64,000 bases of DNA, taken from contig BCJX01000018.1 in NCBI GenBank assembly GCA_001600415.1, forward strand, positions 498,363-562,362. Direction: 5' to 3'. Within the stretch, counting starts at the first letter, position 1. The number at the start of each line of letters is the position of its first letter. Below are positions 4,174 to 60,628 of the stretch, one piece after another. Below the pieces are notes generated by a model that saw nothing but the letters and a program-made list of their open reading frames with translations, ran no database searches and was not told the origin of the DNA. This DNA comes from Pascua guehoae. Taxonomy: Eukaryota > Basidiomycota > Tremellomycetes > Trichosporonales > Trichosporonaceae. A program made the position numbers and the translations under genes.

Positions 4174-5212
4174 ATGCGGTTCCACCTCACCGTCCTCGCC
4201 CTCGCCGCGAGCGTCTTCGCTGCACCCCTGGAGCAAACATCGCACGGCGTGGCCGAGCGCGGCGCCAACGCGACGTACTCTATCCTCGCGCCCGACGTGT
4301 GGGACTCGTGGCGCGAGTACGCCCACTATGCGGGGTACGTCCCAGTGACTTTGGTAGCGACCGTGGCTGACACGCAGTGCCGTCTACTGCGCGCCGTATG
4401 TGGTCAAGCCGTGGAAGTGCTACCAGTGCAAGTCGATCAACCCCGCGCCCAAGATTGTGGCCATGGGGGGTGAAAACGTGCTCTCTCCTCGCTGTGAGCC
4501 ATCCTCACCTTACTGTACCAGATTCTCAAGCTGACATGCAGGGTTCGTGGCAAACAACGGCTCGCACACCATCCTGACCATCTCGGGCACGAATTCAATC
4601 CCCATGTGGCTCCTGGACCTGGGTGCCGTGATCCTCGCGCCCGTCGACGACTTCTACTTTCCCAACTCGCCCGGGGCCAAGATCCATGTGGGGTGGTACA
4701 AGGCGTTCAAGATCATGGCACCCAAGGTGACTGCGGCGGTACAGAAGAGCCTCCGAACGGCGCCCAAATTGCTCGTCGTGGGCCACTCGCTGGGTGCGGC
4801 CGAGGGGCTGATTTTCGCCACCCACCTCCGCGCCAAATACGGCTACGACGTCACGGCGCGCCTGTTTGCGCTCCCCCGCGTCGGCGACCATGCGTGGGCA
4901 GACTATGTCGATGCCACCCTCGGCGGTCGCCAGCAGCACCTCACGCACTTCAACGACCCCATTGCCGCCGTGCCGCTCCGCGAGTGGGGGTGGCAGCACC
5001 CCAGTGGCGAGCTGTGGATCGACAGCGTTGCCGGAAACCACGTCCGCGTCCTCGACGGCCAGGAGAGTCCGGACGGACAGGATAGCATGGACTTTGGCGA
5101 CATTATCAGGGAGGGCGTCGTCAATCTCAACCTCTTTCCACAGTCGCATCTTGGGCCGTATAATGGGGTTCAGATTAATCCTTTCCTCTGTCCGCCACCG
5201 ACGATCATCTAG
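4174..5212 (+). CDS. Secreted class 3 (Rhizomucor-type) triacylglycerol lipase
   Basis: Predicted to hydrolyse ester bonds of acylglycerols outside the cell. Exons are 4174-4334, 4378-4469 and 4542-5212 (307 residues); the introns of 43 and 72 nt have GTACGT/GTGAAA donors and CAG acceptors. A signal peptide (MRFHLTVLALAASVFA) starts the protein. After the first junction comes the AVYC...W.C..C pattern typical of secreted fungal class 3 lipases. The nucleophile elbow GHSLGA places the catalytic Ser at about residue 167. The Asp in HFNDP (about 223) and the His in SHLGPY (about 287) have the spacing expected for the Ser-Asp-His triad. The ATG at 4174 is preferred over in-frame codons further upstream because it begins the signal peptide. 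Family assignment is strong; the natural substrate cannot be read from the sequence. Confidence 0.9.
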
Positions 5213-13671: not shown

Positions 13672-16600
13672 CTAGAAGACACTGGCGGTGCGGAGCTGCT
13701 CGAGCTTTTTCAGCACCTCGCCGACGTTGCGGTCCAGGTCGGCCGCAATCGCCTGCTGCTGTTGGTACGGCAGCAGGCTGAAGCTCTCGCACAGGTCGCC
13801 GTCAACGACCGCCTTGACGGGCGCATAGTAGCCGCGGTATGCGAGGTGGTCGCGCCCGACGAGCGAGGTGTTGAGAGAGCGGATGTGCTGTGGCGTTAGC
13901 GGGTGGATATGGAAGATGCAGATGGATTTTGAGAGGCTTGGAGTGGAGTTGAAGGAGACGATGAATAATGGGGCGTTGGAGCCCGGGTGGGCCAGAGGTG
14001 ACGGAGCGGCGAGAAAGGGAGGGCCACCGAGCTCGGAATGAGTCTCGAGCTCGGGTATGAGGCATCCAATTCTTCGAGGAGATAAGGCTACTGCCACTGC
14101 ACGGGAAGGAAGTTGCTGGGCCGCATGGAAATTAACCCTTCGAGCTCCAGCATAAATCCACTCGAGGTGAATAAAAAAACCTAGAGGTCCAAGAGAGCAG
14201 GTCCACTCGAGGAGAGAGACGCAGAACGTCATAGAATGGCTGGGCGTGTCTTCCAAACACCAGCCGCCGAGGACGGAGCCCGGAACCGCCACTTGGTCCA
14301 CACCCCTTCTCAAAGACCACGCAACACAACGGCTACTCACCATCTCAAGGGTCGACATAAACTCGACGTCATCGTTCGAGATGAACGGGACGAGCGCACC
14401 GACCGCGCCCGACACCGTCGTGTAGACGACCACCTCGCGTCCTCCCGGCGCGACGGCGACCTTTGAGAGGCTGTGTGTGAGCGAACGTCTACATCTACAT
14501 GTGTGGCCCGGCCGGACTCACCTAGTAACGACCGAGCCGACATTGTAGTGCGCAATGAGGTCCGACTTGTTGGCAGCGCCCATGAGAAAGCCCTTTTCGT
14601 GGAGGATGACTGCGCCCGTGGGGTCATCGTCTACTTTTTCGGAAATGCGTTGCTCGAGGCGGTTGACGAAAATGTTGCCAAACTTGTCGGCGCAGCAGAC
14701 CGTGTCATAGTCGACGGACACGACGGCGGTGATAAAGCGCGGCTGCGAGTCGTCGGCAAAGATGAGGAGCTGGCGTGTGGGGATGGAGCGGTAGACGCAG
14801 TAGAATGTGGATTCTTGGAAGTCGCCGACAATGATACGCGCGCCGACCACGTTGATGGTCGCGACGCCTGTTGGGAAGCCATTGTTTTCACACTTGCGCA
14901 GGAGCGCCTTTTTGCCGAGCTCGTACAGCCGGAGCGACTTGCCTACACCGGCCAGCAGGTATCCCTGGAAGCCGGCGAGGCAGAATGGCAGGTCGTCGGT
15001 GCGTGTCTTGTGCATGAGCTCGAGACGGCGGCCATTGTCCTCCATTGCATAGACGCGCAGCCAGCCGCCGGCGCACGATCGGGGAATGAGCGTCGTCTTC
15101 ATCCCCGAGCCGACGACGAGCGCAGGCTTGCCGCCGAGCTTTTCGAAAAAGCACACGGCCATCGAAAACGCCGCCTCGTCCTCGTCCAAGTCAATCGTCT
15201 GCAGCGTCTCGTTGGCAATCGGGTCCAGCACGCGCACGAGCGACGCCCAACGCCCGGCAGGCGCGCGTGGTCGGCCAAACTCGGCAAATGGCAACTCGAG
15301 CAATTCGCGGTTGTCAATGCGGTCTCCCGCCTTTGCCTTTTCGCCCAGTATCCGCTCAATGGCCTTGGGGCCGTACGTCCGCTGGTCCGACTCGATGCCG
15401 TAGAAAATGTTGACCGGCGGCTGGTATGGGTCCAAATTGGGGTACGCCACAATCTGGCGCGGCGTGTACGTGAGTGGTGTCGAGTCCTGCTTGAGCTTTT
15501 CGCCAAGCTTGGGAATGGTGAGGATGCGCAGCGTGTTGCCCGAGATACCAATGAGACCGTCGGGGCACATGGCAGCCGAGAGGTGGCACGCATACTCGAG
15601 CGTGTCGTAAATGAGCGGCTGGGTCTGCAACAGGTCCTGGTACGTGTACAGGAGCCATGTGCGCGACGAAAATGCCATGACTGTTGGTGCGCCGTGGACC
15701 AGGGACCGCACAATGCGTGGTGGCTTTGCACCGATAAAACGCAGGCGCGTATCGGACAGCGAGCCGTCGACGGGGTCGACGACTGTGCGGAGGAGCACAC
15801 CAGTGACAAGACCAATGGCCAGGAACATGGTCGCACGGTTCTTGTCAATGGACGTGTCAAAGATTTCGGCCAGACAGATATCGCTCGGGGGCGCCGTGAG
15901 CGCCTGCAGCGACAGCGTCTCGAGCGTATTGTCGGGCTCGAGCGAAATGACATGCACAGTCTGGTTGTCGCATCCGACCGCGAGGAATGGTGTCCGTCTC
16001 CTGCCCTCTGGAATGTCGGCAATGCTCACACACGTCGCGTTTCCCGGCAAGCTCTTCTTTTCCTGGTACTCGCTGAGCGATCCCTCCTCGTCGAGCTCAA
16101 AGTAGACGAGCTCGGCCGTGCTGAGCGCAATGACCACCTGGCGCTTGTTGGTCGTTGCCGACACAATCGACGTGCCAGGGGGACATTGCCACTCGTCGAC
16201 ACGATCCGCCGCCCGGATATGCCGCAAGCCGTACGGGTGGACCTGGAGAAGACCCTCGTTGCCCAACTGCTGAACTGCAAGTGTCGGTCCTGATGACAGG
16301 AACCCAGTGTCGTTGACCTCTTCGATCGTCTCTCCAATCGACAACACGAGCGTCCCGTTGGGGAACGACAGCACAATGTACGAGTCGTACTCGTCCGTCT
16401 CGGCGAGCTTGAGCGTCCACACTGCAGTCGGCACACCAGGCAGGGGCGAGCTAACGAGCACATTGACGTCGAGACCGTGCTTGAGCGAGCGGAACGTACT
16501 CCGAGGACCACGACCGCACGCGGCGTAGATTTGTGGCGTGTCAGACGCCTGACCAAGGAGGTTGACGACCTGCGCGTCGAGAATCGGGTCAAGCGACGAT

Positions 16601-18322
16601 AATGTGTCCGCCAGCAAGAGGTTTTGCAAGGGGCGTGGTGAGAAAAAGGCGTATGGCAGCGGGTCCTCGCCGTCGCCATTGTTGGGGTAGTCTGTCGATG
16701 ACCATTCTTGCTCGTCGTCGTCGTCGGCTAGACTCTGGAACTGGTACAGGTTCTGGTCGCCAAACTCGCTCGCCACAAACAGGTATCCGCTCTTGAGGAT
16801 GCACAGGCTGGACGCGACGGGAACCGTGTCAAAGTACTTGATCCGCAGCGCCCGCACGTCCTCGCCCTCGTGGTCAATCGTGACCTTGTACAGATCGCCG
16901 TCCTCGCTCTGGAGAAGGAAGAAGAATGCGCCCTGTGTTGTTAGTGAATGGGTGACTCCCACGAGCGGACACCCACCTTGATCTTGTGCACCACGGCAGA
17001 CACAATGAGCAGCCCTCGGCTGGCCTCTCCGCGCTGCGCCAGAGGGTTCCGCCTCCGAGGGATGGGCACGCGGTGGGCGTCGGCATCCATGTGCTTCCAG
17101 ATAATGTGGTCCTCGGTACACACGAGGACACCCGAGGGTCCATCAAAGCGGTTCGTGTTGGCATTCTGTCCGCCGGGCACCATGACGAGGAGGTTTGCGC
17201 GACGGTCTGTCGGCTCGCTCCATTTCCGCACAACGTGGTTGAGACCAAGGTCGAGCTCGTAAAACGTCAGGTACTTTTGTGTTTCCCTGTACGCGTCGCC
17301 TGTTGGGTCCTGGTCCGACTCGTTGTAGTCAATCTCGAGCGCGGCAAACAGCGGGTTGTCGTATCCGACATCGCACCCGATGAGGGACATTGTCAGATTG
17401 TGTGCCCTTTGCGCCTCGAGCGGCGACGAGGGGAACAGCTTGCCCTCCGAGTTGCGGTTCAACACGTACACGAGCTTGGACTTTTCCACCGCGCCGTACA
17501 TGGCACTGCGTCCCTTTGGGTCCACGGCAAGGTACTGGCCGGGCACCGTACGGCGGCTGCCCGACTTGCCGTACACCTCCTGGTGTAGGCTCTCAAAGTG
17601 CGGCGTGGGCGCAATCACCAGCTCGATGATCGATAGTCGCCCAGAGTCGGACGACAGCAAGATGTAGTCCTTGCCCATGCCCGCGAGGCGGAACGCGGAC
17701 ACATTGCGCACGGTACCGAATGCCTGTTGTCAGTGGATTGAACACGGTGGGGTGGTGGTGGCACGTCGCGACCAGGGTGGGTAGGTGGGCACCGCTGGAG
17801 ACAAAGTGCTTCCCTCTAGGCAAGGACGAGGTCTTGGATCGCGCAAGACAATAACAAGCCGTCGCGCCGAGGGAAGCTTGAGCACAGCTGCTCATGTGGA
17901 ATTTCCACAACTCCGCCTCCTCCCCAACAAGATCTTAGATGTCGCGCGATCCATCGACGCCCAGAGAGCTCCCCGATGTCGAACACCAGGCAGTATGTCG
18001 CCACCGCAATCGAAACTCACCTCGGAGCTACAAATCGAGTCCACTGCAATGTCAGTCCAGCCGCGTACATCCAAACAGCTCCCCCCGCCCTCCCCATCTC
18101 CTCCATCTCTATACACCTCCACTCCTACACCCCTCCCCTGCTCCCTACCCTACCGTCCCCCAACTTGCACTCACACTTTCCCGACTGCGTGTTGAGCTTG
18201 AGGATCTCGAGCCGCGTCCCACCATGGACGACGAGAATCTCCTGCCCCTTGCCCGAGAACGAGCCGACAGCGGCCGTCGTGACCGACGCGGGCGGCTGGA
18301 GGGAGAGGTTGAGGAGGTGCAT
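13672..18322 (-). CDS. RSE1: Pre-mRNA splicing factor RSE1 (SF3B3 homologue)
   Basis: A subunit of the SF3b complex of the U2 snRNP, which helps recognise the branch site; a three-beta-propeller protein of the DDB1/CPSF160 family. Exons read from the right: 18175-18322, 18021-18043, 16977-17723, 14522-16932, 14341-14470 and 13672-13887, giving 1224 residues (human SF3B3 has 1217). Diagnostic segments include the MHLLNLSLQ start, [22 protein letters not shown], the run ending DHLAYRGYY, and DGDLCESF near the C terminus. Exon 2 is only 23 nt; it is needed to restore KLDSICSSEAFG between exons 1 and 3 and has a CTGACATTGCAG acceptor and a GTGAGT donor. The intron before the last exon is 453 nt, several times longer than the 44-51 nt introns beside it. 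The gene is complete. Confidence 0.95.
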
Positions 18323-19013: not shown

Positions 19014-20939
19014 CTAGCTGGACTTTGGTGCCGCCGGGTCGGTCGTCGCAGGTGCTGGCACCGCGGCTTGGGGCGCAGCCGCAGGCGCAGGTGTGGGGGT
19101 CCCCGTCGGTACGGGGGTGGTAACGGCCGGGGTGGTCGGTGCCGCGGGTGCGGGTGCTGGAGCGGCAGTCGACGCGACAGGCGCGGGGGCCACGACGGGT
19201 GCCGGTGCAGGTGTGGGAGTGGCGGCGGCAGCAGGTGTAGCCGTGGCGGCGGCGACTGCTGCGGCGGTGGTGGCTGCCGCTGGGGCAGGAGGAACCGCGG
19301 CAGGGGTCAAGGGTGCCGCCGCCGCCGCGGGGGTGGTCGCTGCGGCTGCCGCGGCGTTGGTGGCGTGCGCGGGCGGAACGTAGGATGGAATGTTGCCAAA
19401 GCTGTGGTACGCGGGAGGCCATGGCGTGTTTGGGTTCTCGCCGCGTGCGACTGCTAGGTCACGGTGGAGCGCCTCGTTGATGCGCTGCATCTCGTCGACG
19501 CGGTGCTTCAAGTGCGCAATGTAGTCTACGGCCTTGGACAAAATCTCCCACTTGGAAGCCTTCATGCCGCGATCGGCCGGGAGCTGCTCACGGAGCTCGT
19601 CAAAGAGGTCGCGCATTTCCTTTCGGCGCTTGCGCTCTGCAAGCTTGTGGCTAATACGGAGCTCGGGAGAGCGGGAGAACGGAGTCTCCTTTTTAGGTGT
19701 CCCGTCCGAACCAGGCGGTGCGAGCGAGTTCATGGGGTCGTCGGGCTTGTAAGCCGCGGCGACGGCGGCGGGAACAGGTGCCGGGACAGTTTGAGGGGCT
19801 GGGGGCGCAGCGGCAGCAAGAGGTTGGGCAGGAGGGTCAATCTCAATTGCAGGCGAGTCGGTCGCCGAGCCGAGCGTTTCTGGCTGGACGCGGATCTCGG
19901 GAGCAGCAGCGGCTTGGGCGGCATTGTTGGCAGCGGCTGCAGCCTCGGCGGCCGATCGGACAGCGGACAGTGCAGGGTCAATGTTGGCACCCTCTGGCTT
20001 GGCATCACCCGATGCGACGGCCGTACCGTCCATGTTGGGCCAGGCACCGTATTGCTGCACCGGGTAGACGGTGAGCGAGTTCGAGCGCGAGATGGGCATT
20101 GTCTGCAGGAAGCGGCGCTCGGCGGGCGACATTGCGCGGCGGTAACGCTCGTACGGGTCGCTCGAATAGTCGCCAGGAGATGCCGACGAGGCAAGGGGGA
20201 CACGTGACTTGACATCATCGCGCTCCGAGATGTGGAGAAGCGGGAGACGGTCAAGCGCGCGCTGGTCGCGGTCGCGGTCACGGTTGTCGGTGGGGGCCAT
20301 CGCGGGCGAGTCGAGTCGGAGGAGGGGTGGGGTTGCGGGGAAGGAGTCTCGTCTGTACGGATGGTAGAGTCTGACAGGCGAGTGGTCTGGGTACCGATCG
20401 CGTGGGTATTCACGAGGTTCCTGTTTGATAGGGGGGTTGGGAACACCTCTGGAGGCTGGCGGGGAAGGATAGGGGTACGGCAAGGGCGTGAGGAGCTCTG
20501 GGTCACTACTGTAGGCAAAGCCGTGGCCGTCAGAGGACACTGGGCGCGTGTGGAGAGGCAGACGTGGTCGTCGAGGATGGGCGGTTAGAGGAGGCGGCGC
20601 GTCGACAATGGGCGACGACGGGCGAGTGACCTTGATGGGTGGTAAGAGGCGGCTAGGTTCGCGCTCGTGACGGATGTGACGAGGAGGAGATGGATGCCGT
20701 GGGACGGGCTGGTAGTGCTCCAAGCGGGGCCTAGAGTTGCTGTCTTGTCAACACTGTGTGCGGTCATGTTGTTGGATTGCTGTTGATGCTTACCTGTACG
20801 GTCGGTACGAGTGGGGATGGGCGTGGTGGTTGGGGGGCGAGTGGAACCTCTGATGGGGATGGCGGTAGTGGTGTGGGTGCAGGCTCGGCGCCGGCGACCC
20901 GGGGGTGGGGTAACGGTACGTGTGGTGGGTACGATGCAT
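19014..20939 (-). CDS. Basic helix-loop-helix transcription factor
   Basis: A nuclear DNA-binding protein expected to bind E-box-like sites as a dimer. Exons read from the right: 20794-20939 and 19014-20730 (620 residues); the intron has a GTAAGC donor and a CTCTAG acceptor and joins PYR to PRLEHY in frame. The bHLH domain lies at about residues 404-470: the basic part contains HKLAERKRRKEMRDLF with the E-R-x-R core, and the loop and helix 2 run through ASKWEILSKAVDYIAHL. The N-terminal half is rich in Pro, Arg, His and Tyr; the last 140 residues are an Ala/Pro/Thr low-complexity tail. The start is uncertain because the frame stays open upstream; the ATG at 20939 is the nearest methionine before the conserved-looking part. 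C/T-rich sense DNA at about 22160-22300 could be a distant promoter or leader. Confidence 0.85.
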
Positions 20940-32056: not shown

Positions 32057-32567
32057 TGTGGCTACGTGCGGTAGGCTGCCTGCCGGCTGTAGCAGAGGCG
32101 CGTTCGAGTGAGGATTGGGTGGCGCGGTGGCGATGGATGATGGCAAAGATAAGAGTTGCAGATGGCTATCGCTGTTGTTGTCTGTTGCCGCTAGTGTGCG
32201 GGTGGCGGTGGTGGCGTCATGTCACATGGCACCAGACTTGCCTAGGCCCGGCCCAAGTGGCGGGATGTTCACCCGAACCCCAATTACCCAGCTGCAAGCT
32301 GCCAGCTGACCTAGGATCGCCCTTGCCACCCAGCCTGTTGACAATTGACAACTTGTCCGCTCCACATGCTCGCGTGGGGCTCATCTCTACGGGTTACATG
32401 CTGATTATATGTAGAGCCTGTATCGTGGGCTGGTATCAGGGCACGTATGTATAATGCGCATGGAGCACGGCAGCCAGCAGTCGGCATGGAGCTCGATAGA
32501 CGGCAGATGCGGCTGCTGCTCGATGTGCGGATGCACCAGGCCAGTGTCTCTTCCTCGTACCGACTGT
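32057..32567. other. F-box gene promoter and Rab5 gene 3' flank
   Basis: About 0.5 kb between two minus-strand genes. No gene or distinct regulatory element was recognised. Confidence 0.5.
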
Positions 32568-33868
32568 CTAACAGGTGCATGCGCTGGGCGCCGGCGCATC
32601 AGTCTTGGAAGCAACCTTGACGCCCTGCGCTCCTGGCTTGGGTGCGTTGAGCGGCAGCTTCTTGGCTGCATGTTAGCGCAGAACCGTGCGGTAGCATGGA
32701 ATCGTCGTGGGGAGTTACGACACAAAGTCACAACACGGCCATGTGTGAACAGGGTCACGTATGACGACAGTTTGTCTTGTAGTCCCACTTCTCGTTGACT
32801 GGAGCAACCCGTGCACGTTGCAAACTCACCAATGTCCATGAATAGTGCCTCGACATTGTCGCCAGACTTTGCGCTCGCCTCGATGAACAGCAGGCCCTCC
32901 TCTGCGGCAAACTGCTCGCCGAGCGCGCGCGGTGTCTTGCGCTGCCCCTCCAGGTCGACCTTGTTGCCGACCAGCATGATGACAATCGACGGGTCCGCCT
33001 GCCTTTGCAGTTCGCGCACCCATGCCTTGGCCTTCTCAAACGAAGTCTGCGGGGTCAGATGCACCGACCTAGGTGGCGCCTTTTTTCGTTGCGACTGACC
33101 TCTGGGGGCTGTGGGTTAGCGATGAACTATGATTGCTTCACTGCTCCACACACCTGAGTGATATCATACACGATCACGGCAGCGTTGGCGTTGCGGAAGT
33201 ACTGCGCGTTAGACAATAGCACACAGGGCGCGAGGACAGCCCCGGCACACCATACGCCTGATTACACTTACAATGGGCGCAAGCGACTTGTAGCCTGCGA
33301 GTTAGTGAGCACAGCAGAAGCAGCGACATTGCGGCAACAACACTATACGCACGCTCCTGTCCGGCCTGGTTGGTCAGCACATGCATCCTCGACACGTCAC
33401 AGAACTATGCACCGTGTCCCAAATCTCAAACTTGACGTTTGTCGAGCTGTCGAGCGGCACAGTCTGCGTGAGGAAAGCGGCTGTCGGTCAGCTCAAGATT
33501 TGGCTTGGCGCCGTCACAGCCTTTCGGCCGACTCACCACCTGAAATCCAGAAGAAAGAGCGCAGGTCAGCTTGCCATCTGAAATCACAGACGGGGGACGC
33601 ACCAATGGTCGACTCCCTGCAAGTTAGCATGTCTTCAGAAAGTAGTGGTTGGCTTGTCACCCACCTAAAGTCGGAAAACTCATCGCGCACCTGAGACGTC
33701 AGATGAATGGAACACGTCGCAGGGCTGGGGTCCGACCTACGAATCTCAATACGAGCGAGCTCTTGCCGACGGCTGATTCGCCTGCTTGTTAGAAACGACT
33801 GTACGCCGACCTAGAATGTCAGACGGACCGAGGAGCACGAGCTTGAAGGCGGCGGTCCTGGGTGGCAT
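32568..33868 (-). CDS. Rab5-family GTPase (Vps21/Ypt5-type), 12 exons
   Basis: A small GTPase expected to act in early-endosome fusion and vacuolar protein sorting. Twelve exons read from the right: 33829-33868, 33741-33781, 33665-33690, 33603-33616, 33537-33539, 33413-33480, 33353-33365, 33272-33294, 33154-33201, 33100-33108, 32830-33046 and 32568-32665, totalling 600 nt and 199 residues. Joined exons restore every G motif: GESAVGKS, the switch I STIGAAF (effector region), WDTAGQERYKSLAP, NKVDL and ASAK. The protein ends CTC, a Cys-x-Cys geranylgeranylation motif. The hallmark AAFLTQTV segment places it in the Rab5 group. Introns are 45-70 nt except the last (164 nt). Several exons are below 27 nt and one is apparently 3 nt (separate entry). 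The first donor is GTCCGT, weaker than usual. Confidence 0.9.
33537..33539 (-). other. Predicted 3-nt microexon (GTG) of the Rab5 gene
   Basis: In sense, exon 4 ends ACC ATT G and exon 6 begins CC GCT TTC. Joining them directly deletes the Gly that follows Thr-Ile in switch I of Rab proteins. Between them lie two textbook introns: 33540-33602 (63 nt, GTGCGT donor, GCTGAC branch, GGATTTCAG acceptor) and 33481-33536 (56 nt, GTGAGT donor, GCTGACC branch, GACAG acceptor). They leave exactly GTG between them. Including it gives ATT GGT GCC, restoring Ile-Gly-Ala. No alternative acceptor or donor giving the conserved sequence was found. Confidence 0.7.
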
Positions 33869-40258: not shown

Positions 40259-42018
40259 GATGAGTGGATTAATCATGATAGGAGTGGCGAGATTAGAAGG
40301 TGATGAGACGACATCTGCTGGCCGACTTTTAATGCTAAAAGGTGACTACGAGGGCGCCGGCGGGGGCGCACGCGCGTGATGGCTCGGCATGACTGTCGCG
40401 TGCCCAGGCAATGATGGATAACGAGCGACGCGATCTAGCCGAGCTCTCAACTCGGATTGCCAAGTAAAGTTGGAGATATCTTGTGGCCAGCAGAGGGGCA
40501 GGCGTAGGTTCCTGTGTTCCACCAAGGGCTTGGCAGAAAGTCTCCAGCTCTACTGGGGCTGATGGTGACGCGTCTCTCCACTGCCTGCACAGCCTTGATA
40601 GTACAGATGACTCATCATTCATCATTCGGGTCTCTGTGCGATAATCTTGCAGTGCCGCGCATCGAGAGGCGAAACCAAGAATATGTGGGACATCCATCTC
40701 GGTCTTCTTTGCTTATCCTGACGTCATCCTGGCTTGTTAGGCTGCCGATAACAGACCCGAATCAGACCCGCTCGGTGCCGAGGGCTGCACTCCCTGTGTG
40801 CGCCCTGGCACTCAGTTTGCTTCCGTCACCCCTGTGTACTTACGCTGCCCAGCCAGCTAGCCCAGCTGGTATCGTTGCACACGGCTTTGTGGCTGTTGAA
40901 GAGTGTTCAGCACGCAGTCACCATAATCTGCACATGTAGGAGTCTACAGCCGTACTCAACTGAATACTATCAAATGAAAAACAAACATAATATTCTACAT
41001 ATTCGCAGCCTCTCAAACATGTTCAAAGCGAGTTTGCAACAGCATCTGGGGCTCGTGCGAGAAAAGAGACAGACGCAGCTCCACAACATGGATGTCCGAA
41101 AGGGGGGGCTGAAGACGCCCTTGGTGGCAAATGTCAACCGTGGGAAAATTCGTCAAGCTTGGCGTGGCACTTCAATTCCAAGCCTTCTTTGAGGCAGGGT
41201 GGTCATCGTCGTTGTGACATGGGGGCGAGCAGCTCCGAGGATCTGAGTTCTGGGCCGCAGAACACGTCTGCTGTCGCCTGCAAGGGGCCCTCTCCCTTGC
41301 ACCTTTCCTCACACATGACAGTTACCGGTACATGGGCATCGTTGTTTGCCGAAGACAAGACGTGGACCCATCGAACGCTCCAAGCTACTACTGGGGAAGG
41401 AAGCTCACACGGAAGCATTCGGGTATGAGGCATGTGTTGCTTCCTTCGGGACAACAGAACCAGGGCCATACTATATACTTGGCTTCTTTTCCGACAATGG
41501 GGATGGCGGGGCCAATGGCCATCTCCGAATGCTGGAAATGCGGACAATTGTGGCTCCGCTCAGATGCTTCTGTGGCGTGCAGCGTGTGGCGTCGATTGCG
41601 CGATCGGCAAGAGCGCCATTGTCTGTATATCTTCGCACCGTCCATCTGTGGCCACCTGACACAGAAATGCAGCAATGCAATTCGAAAGCTTGGGGCATTG
41701 CGTGGTAGGAAATACCCCATATGCTTCTAATGCCCCACGCCTGGGGGAGAAGCACACCGTGCCGCATGCAGACAAAAGAGCATTTCGACGGCCTGTACGA
41801 CCCCAAAGGAAGGTAGTTGAGTCATACCCCCCCAAAGGAAGGTAGATGGCCATATCCCTCAAAGGAGGGAAGATGGGNCGGNCCCCCCCCCCCCCCCCAA
41901 AAGGAAGGAAGGTCTACCCAAAGGAAGGCGGGAAGGAAGGAAGGTTGCTGCTGACAAGCCCGGACACGGAGGAAGGTCGTGGCTCGCATGGTGGCAAAAT
42001 CCCTCGCACCCACGGGGA
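40259..42018. other. Intergenic: esterase promoter and unassigned sequence
   Basis: About 1.75 kb. Overlapping open frames on both strands at 41,330-41,860 look like chance frames: no recognisable motif and no consistent splice-linked extension. The right end carries CCCAAAGGAAGG repeats and two ambiguous bases. Confidence 0.45.
41798..41945. repeat. CCCAAAGGAAGG-type repeats with ambiguous bases
   Basis: Five or more degenerate copies of CC(C)AAAGGAAGG, a C run at about 41883-41899, and N at 41878 and 41882. The ambiguous bases suggest a difficult or collapsed assembly here. Confidence 0.8.
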
Positions 42019-42024
42019 TATAAA
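42019..42024 (+). promoter_or_regulatory. TATA box
   Basis: TATAAA sits in otherwise GC-rich DNA and is followed by a long C/T-rich stretch (about 42040-42420) typical of a fungal core promoter and leader. It supports a plus-strand transcript reading into the intron cluster at 42.5-44.3 kb. Confidence 0.6.
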
Positions 42025-42039: not shown

Positions 42040-42463
42040 CCGTTCTCACTCTTTCTTCTTCATCACTCATCCCACCATTTCCCTTCAATTCATAACTCAA
42101 CCCACCACCACACCCCCACGTCCACATAGTCACCACAACTATACCTACCTACCTCACCTTAGCCCCCTTCCCACCCCACCCCATATCATACCATCACTAC
42201 CCCCCCCCCCCCCGAGGCCCACCTTCCCCACTCGGCATCCTACTCGCTGCGACTCTCCAATCCTCCATTCTCTCTCCCTCCTCCTCTCTCCTTCCTCTTC
42301 TCTCCTCCCTCCTCGTCTTTCCTTCCTCCTCTTTCCTTCCTCGTCCTTCCTTCCTCCTCTTTCCTTCCTTCTTTCCTTCCTTCAATCCTTCCTTCCTCCA
42401 ATCCTTCCGTCAATCTTTCCTTAGTCTCGCCAAGTGGAACACACCGTGTTCATCGCCCCGCAG
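42040..42463 (+). promoter_or_regulatory. Long pyrimidine-rich leader
   Basis: A C/T-rich stretch with a C run at 42200-42213 and CTTCCTTCCTC repeats at about 42260-42415. A possible 58-nt leader intron follows (42464-42521, GTACGC donor, CTGACCCTTCAAG end). Confidence 0.5.
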
Positions 42464-42541
42464 GTACGCTCAAGCTTTGCCTCTCATGGTCTCCGTCCCC
42501 GTGCCATCCTGACCCTTCAAGAAATTGTCCCTTCCTCGATC

Positions 42542-44107
42542 ATGACATGGCTGCCGAACTGGATGGGGACAAAGGGTGAGGGGAGCATCTGATTTTGAAA
42601 CAGCCCGCCTTCCTTAGCTTAGAGGCACCAAGACATGGTGTTGACCCTCACAGTACCATGGCCATATGGTCACGGCCTTCCTCGACGTGATGCGGAAAAC
42701 TTTCTAGGTATGTGTAGTATCTGTGTCGCCCTCTTGACGTGTTTGCAAAGGGAGTTCCCCTGCAGCATTGCATTCGAAGTCTCCCGGCCAGCATTGACAC
42801 TCACAGGACGATATTACCTGCCTCCCTATTATGAATCTCCCGGAGAAATCTCTTTTGTGCAAGGTGAGGGCTGCGCCTGTAGATTCCATGATTCCATGAT
42901 TCCATGGTTCTGTAATTTCCATGGTTTCAAGGTAGGCTCGACTGGTTCGCTGCTTGTCCGTCCATGGCTGCTCTTGTCCGTCCATGGCTCGTTCACCTCC
43001 CACTTTGGCTCCTTCCATGGTTTGCGCTGACCCTTACAGTGAATGTGCATTGCTCTGTGCCCCCCAAGGCAATACAATATCCGTTTGGAGTCGTAGATTT
43101 GTGGCACGTCAAAGGTGAGGGCAGATGTCTCGGGGGACCCACCATTCTCGAGGGTACCTAGTCGGTGCTGAGGTGGCGGTGTTGGGACATGCTGACCCTC
43201 ACCCAGATCCCACCACGCCATGGACTCTATGGTTTCAGGTCCCAACACCATCTCGCTGGAATACAGTCCGTGGTATACATTTTCCGTAAGGTGCGTGGGC
43301 ATTGTGAGCCGGGGTTTGTAACACCCGATGCTGCGGCAAGGTGACACTCAACCTCTGAACCTCTGGTAGAACAGCACGCTGACCCCCACCAACCTCCTGC
43401 TACGCCATGGGCTCTGCACTCACCACGATCATGCGTATCGCCGCTGTGGTGGTGGGCTGTCGAGGTGAGGGCAGTGTGTATCGGGGTTTGTAATACCCGT
43501 CGAGCTTCAAAGCTTCTTCGTCATTGTCACCTTTGACGCAACGCTGACCCTCAGCCTGGGCACCGGCGCCTCCCCGTTTGACGATGGACCCCAATTTGGG
43601 ATACATATCGGAGGTGAATTCAGTGTGTGAAGAAGTTTGTAACATCCGTGAACTGACGTGGATCTTTCAGGTCCAGCATTCCGATTTGACTCAACACGAT
43701 CCTCATGGCGACTCGATATCGTCATGGCTTTCAACAAAAGGTAAGGGCAGTGTTTTCCCGGGTTGTTTGAAACACCCGTGTTCTCGGTATCGTCGACCAG
43801 ACCAGACCGTTCAGGCCAAGACTCTCGGCCAAGTGTGCTAGCACATGTTTCCAAGCAAGACGGAGAAGACCAAGTGCCAAGACAGAGGCGCCCCAGTGTT
43901 TAGACACGTGTGTTTGAGAAGACATTTGCCTTCCCAACGAAGTTTGCTAGCACAGGTTTCCAAGCAAGACCTAGACGACCAAGTGATAAGACAGAGGCGA
44001 TCAAGTGTTTAGACACCAGCATGATTGACAAGAGCCCCCTTTCCACAACCGACATGTGGTTTCCAGGACAAGACTTAGAGACGGACGCTGACCCTCACAG
44101 ACTGTAA
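42542..44107 (+). CDS. Hypothetical small protein in the intron-family locus
   Basis: I do not recognise this product. One frame can be threaded from the ATG at 42542 through exons 42542-42575, 42654-42707, 42807-42863, 43040-43114, 43207-43285, 43375-43464, 43555-43613, 43671-43740 and 44101-44107, giving 174 residues rich in Pro, Trp, Tyr and Gly. All junctions but one use clear GT-AG sites. Intron 5 is the exception: donor GTAAGG at 43286 and acceptor CAG at 43374 were chosen because they keep the frame. A run of about 174 codons without a stop is moderately unlikely by chance, but each exon is short and some are open in two frames. At least one further intron (44175-44307) and exon follow the stop. 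The locus could instead be a non-coding transcript. TATA box and C/T leader upstream support transcription. Confidence 0.4.
42576..42653 (+). repeat. Introner-like intron copy 1
   Basis: 78 nt, begins GTGAGGGGAG and ends TTGACCCTCACAG. Seven bases at each end are perfect inverted repeats (GTGAGGG/CCCTCAC). Confidence 0.65.
42708..42806 (+). repeat. Introner-like intron copy 2 (diverged)
   Basis: 99 nt, begins GTATGTGTAG and ends TTGACACTCACAG. The 3' end clearly belongs to the family; the 5' end is diverged. Confidence 0.5.
42864..43039 (+). repeat. Introner-like intron copy 3
   Basis: 176 nt, begins GTGAGGGCTG and ends GCTGACCCTTACAG. The ends still pair through a G-U. Internally it has a GATTCCAT triplication (42882-42909) and repeated TTGTCCGTCCATGG units. 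Confidence 0.65.
43115..43206 (+). repeat. Introner-like intron copy 4
   Basis: 92 nt, begins GTGAGGGCAG and ends GCTGACCCTCACCCAG, which has two extra C before the AG. Confidence 0.65.
43286..43374 (+). repeat. Introner-like intron copy 5 (degenerate ends)
   Basis: Contains the family hairpin CGGGGTTTGTAACACCCG at about 43310-43327, but its donor is ambiguous (GTAAGG at 43286 or GTGCGT at 43291). The usual 3' block appears mutated as GCTGACCCCCACC without AG at about 43378-43390, so a nearby CAG at 43374 is proposed as the acceptor. Confidence 0.45.
43465..43554 (+). repeat. Introner-like intron copy 6
   Basis: 90 nt, begins GTGAGGGCAGTGTG, has the hairpin CGGGGTTTGTAATACCCG, and ends CGCTGACCCTCAG (AC lost before AG). 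Confidence 0.7.
43614..43670 (+). repeat. Introner-like intron copy 7 (diverged, short)
   Basis: 57 nt, begins GTGAATTCAGTGTGTG, keeps GTTTGTAACATCCG, and ends in an ordinary CTGACGTGGATCTTTCAG acceptor region rather than the family 3' block. Confidence 0.5.
43741..44100 (+). repeat. Introner-like intron copy 8 (long)
   Basis: 360 nt, begins GTAAGGGCAGTGTT, has the hairpin CGGGTTGTTTGAAACACCCG, and ends CGCTGACCCTCACAG. It contains a direct repeat of about 109-nt period (starting near 43828 and 43937). Confidence 0.7.
43828..44022 (+). repeat. Two-copy direct repeat inside intron copy 8
   Basis: Two diverged copies share GCTAGCACA.GTTTCCAAGC, GACCAAGTG, AAGACAGAGGCG and GTGTTTAGACAC; the spacing is about 109 nt. 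Confidence 0.75.
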
Positions 44108-44174
44108 CGAGCGTGAAGAGTAGACAGTCAAACGCGACAAGCATCACTGCGACTCGGCAAGATGGCGACTAAAG

Positions 44175-44307
44175 GTGAGGGCAGTGTGGCGCAGGGTTTG
44201 TAATACCTGCATCCTTAGGGAACCTCACGTCCGTAGATCGACCAACCTCAAGGCCAAGATCTCGACCAGAGCGCACGTACACGAACACGACATGCTGACC
44301 CTCACAG
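44175..44307 (+). repeat. Introner-like intron copy 9
   Basis: 133 nt, begins GTGAGGGCAGTGTGG, has the hairpin GCAGGGTTTGTAATACCTGC with a base pair exchanged relative to copy 6, and ends ATGCTGACCCTCACAG. Confidence 0.7.
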
Positions 44308-45739
44308 GCAACCATGGCCATGAGTCGGTCAACATTACACCCAGCCAGCTTAGCATACTCATCTCATGATGAGTACCCCACCCTACTTCATAGCTTAGAG
44401 GCTGGTTCCTGGACGCGGTGCGTTGGTTGCACTGACTGCTATGCTGCCACTCCGAGGCAGATGTCGTAGGTCAATTCTGCATCTGGTCGCTTCGCTACAA
44501 TTCCATGCTGTGTACTGGGTTCTTGCTCGAGAGAGTTGGAATTCGTTTTGGGGCTCAGTATGCATGTTCAATAAATTTGCGTCAACTCGGATGCAGTTTG
44601 AAATGTATTATGAAGAGGAGTCGCACGTTTCGCCACAGCTCGCTACAGTTGGCGCGCCTGTGCCACACTGCCTCTCCCCCTTTAAAGGTAAACGGAGGGA
44701 GTGGGGGTTGCTCCTGTTCTACACACCGAGCACCATGTGAGCAGGATGATCCAGACTTGACCTTCCTGCTCGCTCACTGGGAGCAGCGGGATACAGATCC
44801 GCACAATGGCCGTGGAGGAGGCGGTGTGTGGTGGTGGCGCTCCACAACCGTCGTCAGCCCGCGGCGCCATCCACCTGCGACTCTGACTGACGCCACACCA
44901 TCCGGCTCCATGCACTTGTTCCAGCAAGCACCATGGTGCGTGTCGGAGGATGTTCATGCCCGACCTGGGTGTTGCATGAAGGACCGAGCATTGTACGCAG
45001 TTCCAAGTAAGCGAACAGTGCACACATGGTGACGCCGAGTCCAGACACTGGCATCCATCTTTGCGACGGACAATTGCAAGGTGCGCCGTTTCACCGCGAT
45101 TTGAGAACAGGCACAATGTATTTGAGAGGCGGTCCCCTCCGACTTGCCCTCGCACTCGGCCTTGAACGCGTTCTCCCTTCGACACCTGACGCACGCAGCC
45201 AGGTATGGACGCTCGCGGCGTCCGGCGGGTCCAGCGACGGCCAACAGAGTACGTTTCCCCCGCGCTACGTGCGAGCTCGTGTGCGTACGAGCTCCCGTAC
45301 CTCGGTCGCGCCTTGGTCGTACACCGCACACATTTCGCCACCGGGGCGGGCCATCCACGGCCGCGCTAGTCGTCGTATGCTCGTTGTCGCCATCAGGCAC
45401 GCGGCCGAGACCCGTCGCACGACCATAACAGTCACAGAGCTCGGAGGTCGTTCAGAGCTGATACCGTAACTGGTGGGCTCCAACACGGTTGGGCGCGTAC
45501 GCCATGGGCGCGTGTGACATCACGGCGAGATTAGATACGTCAGATTTCTGGAGATCTTCCCGGCGTACATACATCCAGAGTACACCATCGTTTTTTCTCT
45601 TTGGATCTTGCTCTGTCGTGTTGGCTGGTGGAGTTTAAAAAGCATGCATTGGGATGGTGGATTTCTTCACGCTCCTCACTGTTCGAAAACGACCACAGCC
45701 TCACTGTACCAAACAAACCTCACTGTGGAAGAAGCCACC
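44308..45739. other. Downstream exon of the intron-family transcript and intergenic DNA
   Basis: The first bases (from 44308) should be exon following intron copy 9; its end is unknown. The rest has no supported gene on either strand. The promoter of the small gene at 45740 lies at the right end. Confidence 0.4.
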
Positions 45740-58469: not shown

Positions 58470-60628
58470 TTAGGAGACGAGAATGAACACGAGGAACTGG
58501 GTGTCAGCGGTGTTGCAGAGCTGGCGGCAAGGCGAGCGGTTGCAAGCGGCGATCCCGACAATTCTTTGCCCGGAACTGGACGAGACGGAGCCACGGGCCG
58601 TGGGACACGACGTTGGACTCGGTGTTCGGCGGCATTCCGCCTCATCTTCGGATGTCTGTCGTCTTGTCCCCCACCCTCTCCCCGTCATTCCCGCCTCCTC
58701 GTCACTCCCCGTTCTCTTCTCAGCCATCCTCTCGGACCTCCCCGCACTCCCGACCCATCCTCACCACCCACTTCATCCCCATCCCCACCCACTTCCTCCC
58801 CTCAACTCCCACCCATCCGACCCCCTTCCCCAAAACTCCCCCACTCCGATCCCCCCGCCCCCGCTCGCTCTGCTCGCCCGACTTGACTCACGAAAATAAT
58901 CAAAACACCAAATATCTTCAACATCAACCATCGGTTACTGCTAATGCTCGCGTAATACTTGAGCAGTTCGCGCTGTGCGCCCGACACATTGGCCGAAATG
59001 TCCGTCACGTCGGCGTCGATGCGCTGCACCGTCTCGCGCTGTTCGGCGACCATGCCTGCGAGCTGGGAGAAGATTTGGCCCAGTTCTGCAATGGTGGATT
59101 CGATCGACTCGATGGCTGTCGAGCGTGATTGGATGTAGTCGTCCTGGGATGTTAGTGGGGGTGTGGGGGTGGGCAATCGGAGAAGCCAGGGGTTACGGTG
59201 GTGCAGACAGGATGGGTGGTGGTGGTGTAGTCTGTTCGAGCCCGAGGCCCAACTGGGCAACACTGGCTGGCTGCGCTTGACATTCATGTCGTCTGCTGCC
59301 AGCACCTCACGTCGCGCCACCCCAGTATCCATCAACGGTCCCATCTCGGCTCATCAAGCGAGACTACCCTCCCGTTCTCCCTCAGACTGCAGCAAGAGCA
59401 GTGACCACCATCACGCCCACCCTTCTCGGACCCAACCCTCGCTCCTCAACCCTCGCTCCTTGTCGATCGCCACACGCGTCTCTGCCCACTCCGATCTCCA
59501 GTGGCGCTCCGCATCTCCCACCCTCCGGTTCCTGTTGAACTCGCCCACCCCGCCCTCCTCGCCATCCGACTCACCTGCTGCTCCACGAGCTGCATCTGCT
59601 GGTGCTCTTGCCCCTGGTACGGATTCGCGCCGTCGATATTCAGTGCCAAAAAGTCGTTGCCATTCTCGCCAGGCACCGCGCGCGCCTTGCCCTTGCGGTC
59701 TGAAGTTCCCGCCCCGGGGCCTCCGGGCTGTGCAAACAGGAGCGAGTCTGGAGTCAGCGATAGCCGGGTGGGATACGTGCGTGTTGTGGTGGAGGAGTTT
59801 GTGCACCGGCTTGTGCACTGCCGTCGTTGCCAACAAGGACGTAGCTGCAGCGCGAGCATGTGCACCCCCCGGCTCATCCTTGCACAGTAACATCGCGGCA
59901 CCGTGTCCATACCTGCCTCTGTCCCAGTCCACAACTCGGCTCGGCGCTTCGCGCCTCGCCTCAGACTCACCCTTCTGTGGCGCCAGCGCCGCGTTGCTTG
60001 CGCTGTGCATAAACTGCTCTGTGCGGTCCTTTGACGCCTTCATATTCTGTGTGCGGAGCTCGAGCACGTCCTTGAACCCCATGCCCATGTTGGCGAGGCG
60101 GCTCTGGAGCATCATGACGACATTGGAATTGTGCTCTTCGACCTGCTTTGTCTGGCCTGCGGGGCGCTGCGAGCGCACATAGGCCTGCAGGCTCGCAATC
60201 TGCGTGTTGAGCGAGGCAATGTCCTGCCGGATAATGTACGTGAGCTCGGAGATTTCGACCGGGCGGTCGTCGAACAGCGTCTTGCGCTTGGCCACTGCGT
60301 GTCAGAGGAGGTACGCGGGGTGATACCATAGCAGGATGCGCTCGCCGATACAAGGCAGGCTCGCCCCCACCCCAAGAGGCTCGCATCACGCGCCAACACC
60401 CCCCCGCCTATACTCACACTGCGCAAGCTTCTTCAACTTGAGCGTCGTCGCATTGATGTCCTTTGCAATGTTACCCGCCAGCCGCCCAAACTCGCTCTTG
60501 CTACTTCCCGCCTGCGGGATGAGGGGCTGCTTGGCGCTGTCCCCGCGCTTTCCTGGCGGCACGGCAGTGCGCGCCTTGATGCTGCTGAGCGCCGAGTGGA
60601 ACTCGGCCGTGCGGTCGCGGGGCGCCAT
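58470..60628 (-). CDS. SED5: Syntaxin-5-type Qa-SNARE Sed5
   Basis: The Golgi t-SNARE that accepts ER-derived and intra-Golgi vesicles. Exons read from the right: 60418-60628, 59971-60294, 59575-59747, 58892-59143 and 58470-58496 (328 residues; yeast Sed5 has 340). The N-terminus MAPRDRTAEFHSAL matches the Sed5 N-peptide that binds Sly1. The Habc region (DINATTLKLKKLA, VEEHNSNVVMMLQSRLA) follows. The SNARE motif in exon 4 (STIAELGQIFSQLAGMVAEQ...) has the zero-layer Gln in AEQRE. The tail anchor begins RWLMLKIFGVLIIF and is completed by a 27-nt last exon encoding FLVFILVS, found 395 nt further on after a GCTGACACCCAG acceptor. Without this exon the frame runs into a non-hydrophobic tail. The gene converges on CHM7 with a 242-nt gap. 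Confidence 0.93.

Follow-up and report, generated by a model that had tools for sequence, protein, structure and literature searches.

Related putative introns with complementary ends are clustered at a single locus of Pascua guehoae

Do nine intron-like segments with similar ends, crowded into 1.7 kb, form one intron family, and how might such a family have multiplied? The question is raised by positions 42576-44307 of a 64-kb stretch of the genome of the basidiomycete Pascua guehoae (C18:498363-562362, hereafter the window), where an earlier note had proposed a candidate introner family. Nine intron-like units (I1 to I9, Table 1) are present where that note had placed them. Their common 5' end is best represented by GTGAGGGCAGTGTG; at the 3' end they share GCTGACCCTCAC, which AG follows in most copies. 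Copies 1, 3, 4, 6, 8 and 9 start with GT(G/A)AGGG. The first 33-40 nt are common to I5-I9 (roughly GTGAGGGCAGTGTGnnnCGGGGTTTGTAAYACCCG), parts of this block also occurring in I1 and I4. A 3' block of ~12-15 nt is common to seven units, and the middles mostly differ. The 3' motif of the earlier note is confirmed, TGACCC(T/C)(C/T)A being present in copies 1, 3, 4, 5, 6, 8 and 9 (TGACACTCAC in copy 2); I4 ends in CCCTCACCCAG or TTTCAG. The count of nine introns with shared ends also needs some correction: copy 5 has no acceptor (CCCCCACCAACC), I7 has the common 5' half and CTGAC without CCCTCAC, and I2 is only faintly alike.

Without an acceptor in copy 5, I5 and I6 probably make up a single compound intron (43291-43554) and would be spliced jointly. 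This compound is not a [D1,2] stwintron (spliceosomal twin intron), in which an internal intron splits the donor between bases 1 and 2, as AG directly precedes the GT that opens its second copy. For I4, an alternative end lies 32 nt later, at 43238 (TTTCAG). I8 contains a 77-nt direct duplication (43831-43907 and 43940-44016, 87% alike and 109 nt apart), which explains most of its length.

The likeness of the units was compared with that of 66 background introns, selected by a rule of our own among 77 candidates in the window and in 200 kb of contig C2 (a stricter first rule gave 20); for intron likeness, just the 44 longer than 60 nt were drawn upon. Over positions +7 to +45, pairwise z averages 3.01 among the nine locus introns, and 17 of the 36 pairs have a z of at least 2. 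The same test on 25 random sets of nine background introns gave a mean z of 0.20 (largest 0.48) and 3.4 such pairs (largest 6). The exon flanks of the locus introns give z values of 0.35 and 0.18, and in another run 0.41 and 0.31 against 0.21 and 0.28 for background exons. GTGAGT is the commonest donor of the background introns (25/66), and not one of them begins with GTGAGG. The claim that no other intron begins with GTGAGGG is thus upheld (0/66), the 7-mer itself recurring elsewhere in the window. Over the window as a whole, single motifs with up to two mismatches are no commoner than in shuffled sequence (94 places against 94.4 expected, and nine against 9.3 for the 3' motif); seven of the nine places of the 3' motif fall within the 1.7-kb array. 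These comparisons support a relationship of most of these introns to one another.

The likeness peaks at both ends of the introns, over 40 nt at the start and 15 nt at the finish, and is patchy between. This distribution would also suit gene conversion among older introns of one gene, which would have made their ends alike with no gain of introns. Such a process would need repeated tracts that halt exactly at the intron borders, and the bias for a preceding AG described below would be left unexplained; we consider it very unlikely.

Another possible source of the likeness is local tandem duplication of an exon-intron unit, the alternative named in the earlier note, the exons then diverging faster than the intron ends. 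A 41-nt repeat, 78% alike, spans the ends of I4 and I5 and runs into the next exon, and the most alike exon flanks (I1/I9, with a z of 4.6 on both sides, and I4/I5, with 4.0) might be remnants of such units. With another scoring, 7/36 upstream and 4/36 downstream flank pairs are alike at p<=0.05. The exon maxima, however, fall within those of random background sets (mean maxima 3.9 and 3.8; 5 of 20 sets reach 4.6 per side), and the mean exon z equals that of the background. Among the ten pairs of I5-I9, intron z ranges from 5.0 to 10.3 and that of the adjoining exons from -0.9 to 2.5. Duplication of the unit is thus unsupported for I5-I9, whose exons are unlike while their introns are alike. 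The 41-nt repeat, the I1/I9 flanks and the flank pairs at p<=0.05 make some local duplication possible, but as an explanation of the whole array it appears quite unlikely.

The ends of these introns are inverted repeats. Positions +1 to +14 are complementary to positions -17 to -3, where a single additional base is present. This base is the A of CTGAC, by the consensus motif the branch-point adenosine. The terminal inverted repeats described in the earlier note are thereby confirmed and extended, from 7 bp to a helix of up to 14 bp with one bulge (wobble pairs are included in the counts of Table 1). I4 pairs further if one more bulge is allowed. End duplexes of -18 kcal/mol or stronger are formed by 6/9 units with I4 ending at 43206 (5/9 with I4 ending at 43238), compared with 1/66 background introns. 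Pairing of the ends is no general property of the background introns (cognate -8.53, non-cognate -8.58). When I1, I3, I4, I6, I8 and I9 are folded alone, donor nucleotides 4-7 pair with the last 30 nt at a level of at least 0.96, and each of the six leaves its branch A unpaired. The bases on either side of this A are both fully paired in I4, I6, I8 and I9; in I3 they are almost fully paired, but not in I1. Flanked by 30 nt of exon at each end, I4, I6, I8 and I9 keep the helix.

Exchanging 3' ends between the introns weakens the pairing, with energy-based p values of 0.012 (ten introns), 0.016 (I1-I9), 0.015 (eight) and 0.039 (seven), I0 lacking its last base in this test. Double changes that keep a pair are found at position 6 (I2, U-A for G-C) and among positions 11-14. 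Together, the swap tests and double changes are weakly suggestive of selection on the helix (p 0.012-0.10). A second hairpin, with a UUUGUAAY loop, was noted by eye; its swap test gave p 0.094 and it is not claimed here.

Several observations speak against the explanation favoured below. The 30 nt ahead of CTGAC are little alike (mean z 0.67, 4/36 pairs at a z of at least 2; I7 is one base off register). If I4 ends at 43238, its end duplex falls to -10.2. Outside called genes, strongly pairing ends are also met with fairly often: 19 are present in the 200 kb of C2 and two more in the window. With 30-nt exon flanks, I1 and I3 retain the helix at only 0.17 and I2 loses it (0). For whole-intron folds, z lies only between -1.4 and -2.4 in most copies, I6 reaching -4.1 and I7 +1.7. 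The tests of cognate pairing are weak: counted in pairs, p is 0.029 for eight introns and 0.097 for seven, with 0.084 for the outer and 0.205 for the inner half, I7 being in none of these sets. Much of the same picture would arise from a neutral inverted repeat undergoing decay over time.

A further common property lies just outside the units. AG directly precedes the donor of 8/9 locus introns compared with 10/66 background introns (Fisher 2e-5, the nine being related and therefore non-independent), as the earlier note had seen; copy 1, with GG, is the exception. The proposal made there, of an element that duplicates a short target on insertion, agrees with the AG in 8/9 copies, but no target duplication longer than AG is seen. 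Target duplications of 3-9 bp are absent from the locus, where the flanks have only AG in common. In intron-rich basidiomycete amylase genes as well, exon positions -2 to +2 hold little information (PMC3584928).

These features recall a DNA-transposon introner, a small element with terminal inverted repeats (GTGAGGG.../...CCCTCAC) that inserts at AG, its own end supplying the donor and the duplicated AG the acceptor; the copies would then be local hops or the last remnant of a larger set. The ends are inverted and those of the element would coincide with those of the intron, AG precedes 8/9 copies, and AG directly follows CCCTCAC in units 1, 2, 8 and 9. The derivation of one splice site from a target duplication has been described (PMC12403724). 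Against this, introner duplications measure 3-9 bp (PMC9860276), beyond the AG seen here, and the genome searches, with the pattern limits given below, returned essentially no copies elsewhere. A transposon origin therefore seems unlikely to us.

These searches covered the 33.6 Mb of the genome (28 contigs) with exact or near-exact patterns and a DNA search at BLAST level. An exact GTGAGGGCAGTGTG occurs at two places, both in this locus, and the 5' block pattern at three, all in the locus (controls 0). GTRAGGG...TGACCCTYAC with a size of 72-132 nt has four places, three in the locus and the other on contig C19, with 0 in reversed controls. At 137-197 nt, it has three places (I3 and two elsewhere) compared with two in reversed controls, and at 207-267 nt two places, none in the locus, compared with one; in both of these longer classes, the matches outside the locus do not exceed the control level appreciably. 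These two-ended patterns cover no sizes of 133-136, 198-206 or >267 nt, so that I8, or a copy ending like I6, is not detectable by them. GGGTTTGTAAYACCC with at most one mismatch has eight places, three in the locus (controls 4), and an exact GCTGACCCTCACAG is also found at a third place. Two near-match counts run against a single locus: GTGAGGGCAGTGTG with up to two mismatches has 742 places among the matches listed (534 when the pattern is reversed), and for GCTGACCCTCACAG, one mismatch being allowed, the count is 52 (four in the locus) compared with 24. We read this surplus as the ordinary excess of splice signals. Searching the genome with 42440-43745 and 43741-44312 at the DNA level returned only these segments themselves. 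The idea of a genome-wide introner family is therefore not borne out, with essentially no further copies within the limits of these searches, an outcome which the earlier note had listed as refuting its proposal. A recent genome-wide invader would not give such a pattern, and strongly decayed copies may still lie elsewhere.

Table 1. Coordinates of the array and of the putative transcription unit around it (window positions).
Feature	Position	Strand	Ends	End duplex (kcal/mol)	Pairing positions (of 14)	Remarks
TATAAA	42019..42024	+				likely promoter element, read from sequence
I0	42464..42521	+	GTACGC...CTGACCCTTCAAG	-5.5 (computed without last base)		putative ordinary leader intron; no clear family member
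Longest spliced frame	42542..44107	+				135 codons over eight exons; coding status doubtful
I1	42576..42653	+	GTGAGGGG...TTGACCCTCACAG	-20.7	13	family member
I2	42708..42806	+	GTATGT...TTGACACTCACAG	-8.6	10	faint member
I3	42864..43039	+	GTGAGGGC...GCTGACCCTTACAG	-20.0	12	member by its ends
I4	43115..43206	+	...CCCTCACCCAG	-24.0	10 (rigid register)	member
I5	43291..43464	+	GTGCGT...GCTGACCCCCAC		8	decayed member with 5' block, without acceptor AG
I6	43465..43554	+	GTGAGGGCAGTGTG...GCTGACCCTCAG	-20.6	12	member
I7	43614..43670	+	...CGTGGATCTTTCAG	-5.5	10 (could pair in right register)	short member; common 5' half and CTGAC, other acceptor
I8	43741..44100	+	GTAAGGGCAGTGTT...GCTGACCCTCACAG	-18.5	13	member; internal 77-nt duplication
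I9	44175..44307	+	GTGAGGGCAGTGTG...GCTGACCCTCACAG	-25.5	14	best-paired member
5' arm of I9 end helix	44175..44188	+				+1 to +14
3' arm of I9 end helix	44291..44305	+				-17 to -3; bulged branch A at 44298 (-10)
AATAAA	44570..44575	+				likely polyadenylation signal, read from sequence

The units have the organization of U2-type introns. Between 42420 and 44600, YTRAC-N2..8-YAG strings occur seven times on the + strand (units 1, 2, 3, 4, 6, 8 and 9) and not on the - strand, which speaks against a minus-strand gene, as acceptor-like strings are absent there. The ten putative donors of I0-I9 rank 1-16 among 151 GTs, the best GTs of the - strand scoring equal or higher. GT, a YTRAC branch sequence and YAG follow each other in order in 8/9 units, the exception being I5, which has no acceptor. 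I7 retains CTGAC...CAG, and YAG is retained despite differing 3' ends (I4 CCCTCACCCAG, I6 CCCTCAG, I7 CTGACGTGGATCTTTCAG). TATAAA at 42019 and AATAAA at 44570 also count in favour of splicing. On this basis, the units are regarded as putative, presumably spliced U2-type introns.

The protein-coding status of the transcript is doubtful. By our own reading, 42542 would be the first ATG if the transcript begins after the TATA box and I0 is spliced out. The longest frame starts at this ATG and requires I4 to end at 43238. Its codon score is -0.198 (on-frame mean 0.138, off-frame mean -0.19), frames of at least 135 codons arise in 5.25% of shuffles (0.047 for at least 136), and its GC content at third codon positions (GC3) is 0.49, compared with 0.68-0.75 in three other open reading frames of the window. 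The frame has no Pfam match, no paralogue at E up to 10 and no homologue at E up to 1, in a search that needs shared 5-residue words and covered Trichosporonales proteins. None of these results gives good support for a coding gene.

The weakness of this frame (codon score, ~5% of shuffles, GC3 and missing homologues) fits an alternative in which the units are structured RNAs or regulatory hairpins of a non-coding transcript that is not spliced. Under that explanation, the ordered donor, branch site and acceptor in 8/9 units, and YAG endings kept at otherwise different 3' ends, would not be expected. Nor did any Rfam family fit up to E 5, the sole match (14.5 bits) being irrelevant and outside the array. 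Unspliced structured RNAs therefore have a small chance of being the right explanation.

Some additional features were seen around the array. Upstream of the transcript (41850-41950) are a poly-C tract and GGAAGG repeats, along with undetermined bases (N). CCATGG has 9 of its 27 occurrences in the 64-kb window within 42656-44312, in exons and in I3. Over 16 nt, the reverse complement of 44657-44672 matches the start of I9 at 94%, possibly by chance. Based on Pfam, the neighbouring genes encode a class 3 lipase (4535-5212, +), RSE1/SF3B3 (14518-17729, -; 14518-17142 scanned), a bHLH protein (19014-20747, -), a Ras-like GTPase (32405-33115, -) and a SNARE (58802-59350, -). Among the listed relatives of the 14518-17142 open reading frame, the best that carry a name come from Cutaneotrichosporon spelunceum (81%) and Vanrija pseudolonga (79%), in agreement with a basidiomycete in or close to the Trichosporonales.

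The explanation that we favour, and to which we would give about an even chance, is that the locus is one transcription unit in which I1, I3, I4, I6, I8 and I9, together with the decayed I5 and I7, descend from a single U2-type intron with terminal inverted repeats of ~14 nt. This intron would have multiplied inside one gene without its exons and beside AG. The most likely route would be reinsertion of the excised intron RNA at an AG proto-splice site within its own transcript, followed by a return to the gene through a DNA copy. Reinsertion into the same transcript would explain why the copies are all found in one locus. With copies confined to one locus, beside AG and without exons, we infer that return through RNA is the best explanation, as DNA transposition is expected to scatter copies.

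The role of the helix can be considered from the splice signals that it covers. It would need opening before U1, U6 and U2 could bind; as donor and branch sequence are both covered, splicing should be slowed for as long as the helix stays closed. Rather than aiding recognition, it therefore more likely acts as a brake on splicing, or has merely arisen as a by-product while the family spread. It would also keep both ends of the intron RNA together. In one conceivable form of the favoured explanation, the intron copies itself and is confined to its own gene: the helix, with the branch A as its only bulge, hides the donor, holds off the splicing of the gene for a joint release and preserves the excised RNA for reinsertion at AG, so that the gene fills with copies. 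We regard this form as quite improbable. A bulged branch A is presented likewise by U2 in trans and by domain VI in group II introns. For near-terminal stems, protection of the intron RNA and an association with recent copying have been suggested (PMC12403724).

Among known systems, the closest are the sister (stw)introns and type-2 cropped sister introns of the Hypoxylaceae, likewise fungal families of related introns with terminal inverted repeats (PMC8469720, PMC9024468), together with the NTIRE stems and introner-like elements described below. In the hairpin of these sister introns, the donor G, the branch A and the acceptor G often remain unpaired (PMC8469720); splicing does not need the pairing, which decays with age (PMC8469720, PMC9024468). 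Their inverted repeats, however, are 45-55 nt long and found in many genes without AG bias, whereas the locus described here has ~14 nt, a single location, an AG bias and no twin intron. The NTIRE-10 of Xylariales stwintrons (PMC12403724) are likewise short near-terminal inverted repeats whose stem joins the intron ends. In NTIRE-10, the 3' element is situated downstream of the branch site and ahead of the acceptor, so that the branch element is free; in the present introns, the helix runs from +1 across the branch site, only the A being bulged in the best copies, and they are thus not of the NTIRE-10 type. Zipper stems of yeast introns (PMC12350175) also link the 5' splice site and the branch site, a class from which the present helix is set apart by beginning at +1 and including the branch site. 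The conventional and intermediate introns of euglenids (PMC4770533) similarly have GT-AG borders and paired ends, including a CAG/CTG pairing. In euglenid nonconventional introns, this pairing is at +4..+6 / -8..-6, compared with +8..+10 / -13..-11 here, and the lineage is unrelated (PMC4770533).

Introns alike at both ends, with terminal inverted repeats in some families, are also described among the introner-like elements of Dothideomycetes (PMC4457414) and among introners (PMC9860276). Those occupy many unrelated genes, unlike the introns of this one locus. In Zymoseptoria, tandem duplication within one gene accounts for <1% of single gains (PMC4457414). Pairs with similar encoded proteins were removed in PMC9860276, so a family restricted to one gene would probably have been lost in that filtering. 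In the open-licence literature on introners in basidiomycetes or Trichosporon, as represented by titles, the beginnings of abstracts and passages of PMC4457414, most subscription papers being outside this scope, such an intron family is not described. The family is set apart by its basidiomycete host, its single locus, its short helix from +1 over the branch site and the AG before nearly every copy.

The origin of new introns is a long-standing problem. As the known families occupy many genes, the copying mechanism is mixed in them with the possible landing sites. A one-locus family with graded decay, from the fully paired I9 to the hardly paired I7, would permit copying to be studied in a small region. 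It could be asked there whether copying goes via RNA of the same transcript, whether the pairing of the ends is needed for copying or just tolerated in splicing, and what the AG site contributes.
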